This document shows positions 8,470 to 20,331 of a DNA stretch of 40,400 bases, in pieces. Positions within the stretch are counted from its first letter, which is position 1, and every line of letters starts with the position of its first letter. The DNA comes from an uncultured Bacteroidota bacterium (GTDB lineage: Bacteria; Bacteroidota; Bacteroidia; Flavobacteriales; Flavobacteriaceae). The DNA is taken from the NCBI GenBank assembly GCA_903824755.1, contig CAIJXW010000073.1:1-40400 (forward strand). The letters run 5' to 3'. The notes beneath the pieces were generated by a model, which worked only from the letters and a program-made list of their open reading frames with translations, did not search any database and had not been told where the DNA came from. The position numbers and the translations under genes were made by a program.

Positions 8470-8504
8470 GTGTCCAAAAGTCAACGAGCGATTTATTGAA
8501 ATAA

Positions 8505-8533
8505 CGTCATTGCGAGCAATAAACGAAGCAATC
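8505..8533 (+). repeat. REP-like repeat fragment (GTCATTGCGAGCAATAAACGAAGCAATCT)
   Basis: ATTGC/GCAAT stem with the familiar GTCATTGCGAG...GAAGCAATC core seen in many bacterial genomes (recalled, not searched). Confidence 0.6.
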
Positions 8534-8541
8534 TTTTTTTT

Positions 8542-8620
8542 GGAGCTATTTCCAGCTATTCACTTCAATCTTTATTGTTAAAAAAACAATAAAGGATTTC
8601 CGTTTCTATCTGGGCTAGGG
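8542..8620 (+). repeat. Structured interspersed element, copy 1
   Basis: GGAGCTATTTCCAGCT...AATC-TTTATTGTT-AAAA-AACAATAAA-G-GATT...CGTTTCTATCTGGGCTAGGG; same architecture as 20216-20291. Confidence 0.8.
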
Positions 8621-18207: not shown

Positions 18208-18553
18208 CTCTACAAAGTAGAGCCTATCTCCCCAAATCTGGGTAATTCACCAAAGTCTAGCTTCGCGTTTTTTCTTTTAATAAATAATTGGGGATATTGG
18301 ATATGGTGTCGGCATATACTTTATTCTAATTGTTCATTACTCGAACAAATGTAACTCAAAATAGTAGTAAAAGATTTTTTGAAACGGTTAAATTTTCAAA
18401 AAAAGATTTTTTATTGTATTTCCTTATCAGGAGCGGGTTCAGGAGGGTTTTTTGAGCGGTTTTTAGTACTACAATAAGGAGAAATTTATGGCTAAAATAC
18501 AGTCGTTTTCAAAGTCGCATTTTGTTCGAAAATCGCTCTTTGAACCGCAAGCT

Positions 18554-18690
18554 GCGTGAAGGATAAAAGCGAAAAGCCCACAGCCATGTGGAGCGATAGC
18601 GGAACCTGGCGAGGACTTGTAGCGGATAGCCTGACCGAGTTTTGTGATGGCTTCTTGGTTTGTAATAGCGTTCTAAACGAGGGCACGCCC
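18554..18690 (-). repeat. Structured interspersed element, diverged long copy 3
   Basis: Minus strand reads GGGCGTGCCC...GGTCAGGCTATCCGCTACAAGTCC...CCACATGGCTGTGG...GCTTTTCGCTTTTATCCTTCACGC; GCGTG/CACGC closing pair, internal CCACA-TGGC-TGTGG hairpin. Confidence 0.6.
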
Positions 18691-20215: not shown

Positions 20216-20291
20216 GGAGCTATTCCCGCTGTACACTATATCTCTTGTGGCGAAAAAACGCCACAAGAGGATATCGTTTCCATCGGGGCTA
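20216..20291 (+). repeat. Structured interspersed element, copy 2
   Basis: GGAGCTATTCCCGCT...TATC-TCTTGTGGCG-AAAAAA-CGCCACAAGA-G-GATA...CGTTTCCATCGGGGCTA. Confidence 0.8.
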
Positions 20292-20331
20292 AAAAACACT
20301 CAACAGCAACACATTAGAAACAAATAAACAA

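Follow-up and report, generated by a model that had tools for sequence, protein, structure and literature searches.

Flavo-1 repeats of Flavobacteriaceae as the probable short form of a larger folded element with an exchangeable central hairpin

Flavo-1 copies in the window

The window analysed here is the whole stretch of 40,400 nucleotides from contig CAIJXW010000073.1 of an uncultured Flavobacteriaceae bacterium. A structured repeat, here called copy 1, has an RNase G/E-like gene on one side and a nucleoside deaminase gene on the other, both recognised from their translations. A related repeat, copy 2, is found farther along the window. Both are assigned by cmscan to the Rfam family Flavo-1 (RF01705; gathering cut-off, 42 bits) on the minus strand, and both are ordinary members of this known family. 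The Rfam model represents only a short core of 76 positions. Copies 1 and 2 score over the whole model (positions 1–76), and the Rfam alignment of copy 1 contains no broken pairs. A divergent third copy scores 28.8 bits against RF01705, under the cut-off, at 18546–18640 of the same contig (C73 of this genome, G000). The features are as follows.

8545–8620, minus strand: Flavo-1 copy 1, short form (cmscan RF01705, 84.2 bits, E = 2e-17; model R1, 59.4 bits)
8597–8620, minus strand: 5′ base arm of copy 1, CCCTAGCCCAGATAGAAACGGAAA, bearing the GNA loop strands (sequence and Rfam alignment)
8569–8596, minus strand: replaceable central hairpin of copy 1, TCCTTTATTGTTTTTTTAACAATAAAGA (in 13 relatives, the orthologous site holds differing hairpins)
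8545–8568, minus strand: 3′ base arm of copy 1 (Rfam alignment)
18552–18647, plus strand: divergent third copy, "type B", with a GCGTGA... outer arm (model R1, 28.1 bits, E = 5e-5)
20218–20294, minus strand: Flavo-1 copy 2, short form (cmscan RF01705, 70 bits, E = 1.6e-13; model R1, 46.3 bits)

Copy 1 extends over about 8538–8620 once its 3′ A-run side is counted. It is directly preceded by a CGTC-tagged REP-like repeat (CGTCATTGCGAGCAATAAACGAAGCAATC, 8504–8534), whose presence at this site varies among relatives.

The preliminary description of copies 1 and 2 had noted shared ends (GGAGCTATT...GGGCTA), central stems that differ while each pairs perfectly around an A-rich loop, covariation of CCAG/CTGG with CCCG/CGGG, and a T run before each copy. 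All of these are seen in the sequence, and the E-values put the two copies well outside what chance would give. The repeats had also been called interspersed, and further copies exist: in the own genome, a draft of 2.0 Mb that is 88.8% complete, the RF01705 search gives 61 copies that exceed the cut-off and another 14 that score lower, and more are present in relatives. The suggestion that Flavo-1 should be excluded fails, because cmscan places both copies in RF01705 at 84 and 70 bits. Besides, the Rfam model matches copies 1 and 2 in minus-strand orientation, and the weaker third copy has to be added to the window.

Base arms, folding strand and the long form

The short helices of the base flank two 3×3 GNA/GNA internal loops. 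Among 223 distinct copies, Watson–Crick pairs make up 96% of the cells at seven base-arm pairs (1496 of 1561), four of which vary freely with changes on both sides. The pair counts in these copies are CG 75, TA 71, AT 54 and GC 6 at n4; AT 109, GC 63, TA 38 and CG 5 at n8; GC 157 and AT 55 at r12; and TA 103 and CG 99 at y13. As judged from sequence comparison, true compensatory covariation sits in the base arms. A larger alignment had been proposed as a check of covariation; the base arms pair and covary in it, and the long form described below behaves likewise.

On the Rfam strand, G-U mismatches outnumber A-C mismatches, 35:11 in the short form (p = 5e-4, an optimistic value since the copies share ancestry) and 73:11 in the long form, where an RNA-derived structure may favour G-U slightly. 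A palindrome of double-stranded DNA would prefer neither type, and the wobble bias thus marks single-strand folding. The excess of G-U over A-C indicates that it is the Rfam-sense single strand that folds.

A long form of about 144–150 nt shares the same base and has longer arms and the tip GAGC-GA-CC-N3-GG-AA-GCTC. Its conserved tip, GAGCGACC-N3-GGAAGCTC, is present in the own genome and across Bacteroidia. The four loop strands are mostly GNA and are conserved in sequence without Watson–Crick pairing. An exact scan for AGAGCGACCNNNGGAAGCTCCT with one genome per species returned at least 119 stretches, and all of those listed belong to Bacteroidota lineages. Among the matches listed, 73 of the 82 stretches with the tip pattern are intergenic. 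For 49 listed stretches, 91.6% of cells are paired, vs 71.9% after shuffling and no more than 56.5% in the slid controls. Changes on both sides are seen at 25 of the 33 pairs; the invariance of the tip in these 49 follows from its use as the search pattern.

A covariance model was run on a sample of 295 Bacteroidia genomes from 155 genera and finds the family in 39 genomes and 21 genera; the own genome contains at least six long forms. The distant matches in G249, G324, G468 and G492 bear the tip. Rfam recognised one of seven distant loci (L319), and no other Rfam family was found in the long-form insert. A protein-coding partner of the long form was considered and rejected, the recurrent neighbours looking like shared orthologous loci rather than one mobile gene. 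From these sequence comparisons, Flavo-1 appears to be the short version of a larger folded element that occurs throughout the class.

Exchange of the central hairpin at conserved sites

Of 30 own copies compared with G066, the closest relative in the genus sample, 14 have a Flavo-1 counterpart there with both flanks matching, and three more have one with a single matching flank; the comparison covered 30 of the 42 G066 copies. Orientation is kept in 20 of 21 orthologous comparisons. At the site of copy 1, Flavo-1 is present in all 13 syntenic relatives whose intergenic stretch was recovered. A broader comparison adds more relatives with Flavo-1 and three without it (G002, G010 and G204). Within the genus, copies per genome range from 0 (G018 and G020) to at least 65.

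In different species, 1–9 kb of other DNA is often inserted beside Flavo-1 at the RNase G/E-like locus (L130:1577–10259, L125, L127, L131, L132 and L134), and in G030 a Flavo-1 copy lies at each junction of the DNA inserted there. In two species (L068 and L069), the loop of the intrinsic terminator of the upstream RNase G/E-like gene contains extra inserted sequence. Flavo-1 is also seen about 560–620 bp upstream of 16S rRNA genes in G022 and G036 (L039 and L041).

At the site orthologous to copy 1, the central hairpin is wholly different between species and is still paired. In three species pairs, the arms of orthologs are identical at 0.90, 0.87 and 0.96 of positions, vs 0.79, 0.78 and 0.85 for random pairs. 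In the two more distant species pairs, the identity of the hairpins is 0.64 and 0.55, vs 0.48 and 0.52 at random. The arms keep locus identity, and the hairpins are near random in these two pairs. In the close pair G006 and G086, the arms of L256 and L259 are identical while their hairpins differ. In G066, a single new hairpin type, CCACGC...GCGTGG, recurs in several copies whose loci carry A/T hairpins in the genome studied here. One site is occupied by a long form in G010 and by a short form in G202 (L191/L231).

The preliminary description had taken the paired changes between the two window copies as a sign of selection on structure. This stands for the base arms, which covary. Since hairpins are swapped whole at fixed sites, the difference between the window stems is replacement and not a chain of substitutions with stepwise compensation. 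Ectopic recombination, template switching or repeat insertion could each have brought about the replacement.

In some cases the hairpin brought in by exchange is an unrelated palindromic repeat, and other repeats occur inside the hairpin loops. An inverted pair of CGTC-type repeats forms a long stem in the loop of one Flavo-1 hairpin (L241:1088–1200), and a single CGTC-type repeat lies within the loop at L220 and L236.

Origin and retention of Flavo-1

The number and dispersal of Flavo-1 copies imply past spread. Neither a clean empty site nor a target duplication was seen in G006/G086 and eight further species; a deletion scar and palindrome replacements were found instead. In G086, one copy was lost via a 68-bp deletion between ATAG repeats, which left the 3′ arm. 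A probable tRNA-synthetase gene carries at its 3′ end, depending on the species, either Flavo-1 or palindromes of the AAAGTCGAAAGTC type or the GTGATTAGT type, all of them at one and the same point (L260, L301, L441, L442, L446, L444, L437 and L438). In a biased sample of loci totalling about 2 Mb, no gene was seen enclosed by unpaired Flavo-1 arms, as an autonomous parent would be. Carriage by phages or plasmids gave no BLAST match with one 111-base query, a search of weak sensitivity.

Flavo-1 can be described as a dispersed, intergenic, non-autonomous repeat, whose folded base carries an exchangeable hairpin, and which was formerly mobile and is now kept in place. The chances for and against this description are about even. 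A formerly mobile repeat that is now mostly inherited in place is favoured over the trans-acting RNA that had been among the original suggestions. It can be inferred that the long form is ancestral, and that the copies were once dispersed by a trans-acting enzyme that worked on the folded strand. The present replacement of hairpins could be due to recombination between copies, or to other palindromic repeats inserting and taking over. The base may be retained since it is recognised in its folded state, either as RNA or as single-stranded DNA.

The long persistence of copies and the conservation of sequence motifs fit a host function as well. Flavo-1 may be a structured RNA domain with a protein-binding or stabilising role, located in small RNAs or in transcripts that are not translated, and selected at each site; this is possible, though we regard it as the less probable reading. 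The strand-specific tolerance of wobble pairs, the conservation of non-canonical loops and of the tip, and the occupation of the same sites across the genus are all consistent with it. Rfam classes Flavo-1 as Gene; sRNA, and Weinberg et al. (2010) considered Flavo-1 of Bacteroidetes a probable RNA that is not cis-regulatory (PMC2864571). In F. psychrophilum, however, transcription of Flavo-1 is reported to be inconsistent: matches occur in sense and in antisense orientation to transcribed regions without distinction, many of them lack transcripts, and the study gave no real hint of a function (PMC9723704). The lack of a fixed relation to neighbouring genes, the copy-free congeners and the replacement of the tip by other pairing sequences also argue against a host RNA. 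A cis-regulatory element with a fixed relation to a gene was rejected separately, the neighbour contexts being mixed as judged from crude ORF calls.

The structure could instead reflect an element of double-stranded DNA or a cruciform, a palindrome maintained by hairpin-templated correction with neutral persistence or one with a REP/BIME-like role in DNA architecture, with no function of the single strand. Palindromic repeats from other families are found at sites of this kind and in some cases within Flavo-1 loops, and inverted hairpin loops occur (L259 vs L274), as such an element might predict. It is nevertheless unlikely, given that G-U is far above A-C on one strand and that sequence is conserved in the GNA/GNA loops, where no Watson–Crick pairs form.

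A more active element is improbable: a class-wide, single-strand fold of about 150 nt with a conserved GNA/GNA base and GCGACC-N3-GGAAGC tip, of which Flavo-1 would be the shortened version, copied and rewritten via a nucleic-acid intermediate that a putative enzyme recognises, with the hairpin cassette moving between fixed sites. If true, the element would be the bacterial equivalent of a SINE whose tip is exchanged.

Like REP and CGTC-tagged repeats (PMC3733652), Flavo-1 is dispersed, palindromic and mostly intergenic, with a high and variable copy number. Unlike them, it is larger, contains internal-loop motifs and has no terminal CGTC/GTAG tag. The Bacillus cereus group contains bcr1, a multicopy structured repeat of about 155 bp for which mobility and folding as RNA have been proposed; the host groups are unrelated, and the likeness is one of description only. 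REPs are generally known to be small, intergenic, palindromic and of high copy number (PMC3733652), but movement of Flavo-1 as a REP-like element by a Y1/HUH transposase of the RAYT type is disfavoured and hardly credible, since Y1_Tnp is absent from five genomes with many copies (G000, G066, G004, G029 and G030) while low-copy genomes carry Y1 genes, no association of Y1 with copy number is visible among 29 congeners, aligned Flavo-1 copies lack a GTAG/CGTC tag of their own, and replication-strand bias is absent. The last point comes from a candidate that was rejected in its own right, single-strand transposition tied to the replication fork: the complete genomes of G010 and G036 show no strand bias along any ori-ter axis (p ~0.7–0.8).

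Neither the Rfam model nor the Flavo-1 literature that was found covers the long form, the outer arms of the GCGTGA type, the occurrence of the family in other Bacteroidia or the exchange of hairpins. Added here to the known family are the long form, its range, the strand that folds and the exchange of hairpins while the sites stay fixed. The long form is likely the complete structure, and its sequence-conserved tip could serve as bait in the search for a binding protein. The wider host range means that Flavo-1 is not a curiosity of Flavobacterium. Since hairpins are exchanged at fixed sites, seemingly compensatory changes in multicopy hairpins can stem from recombination and not from selection, which calls for caution in the discovery of RNAs by covariation.
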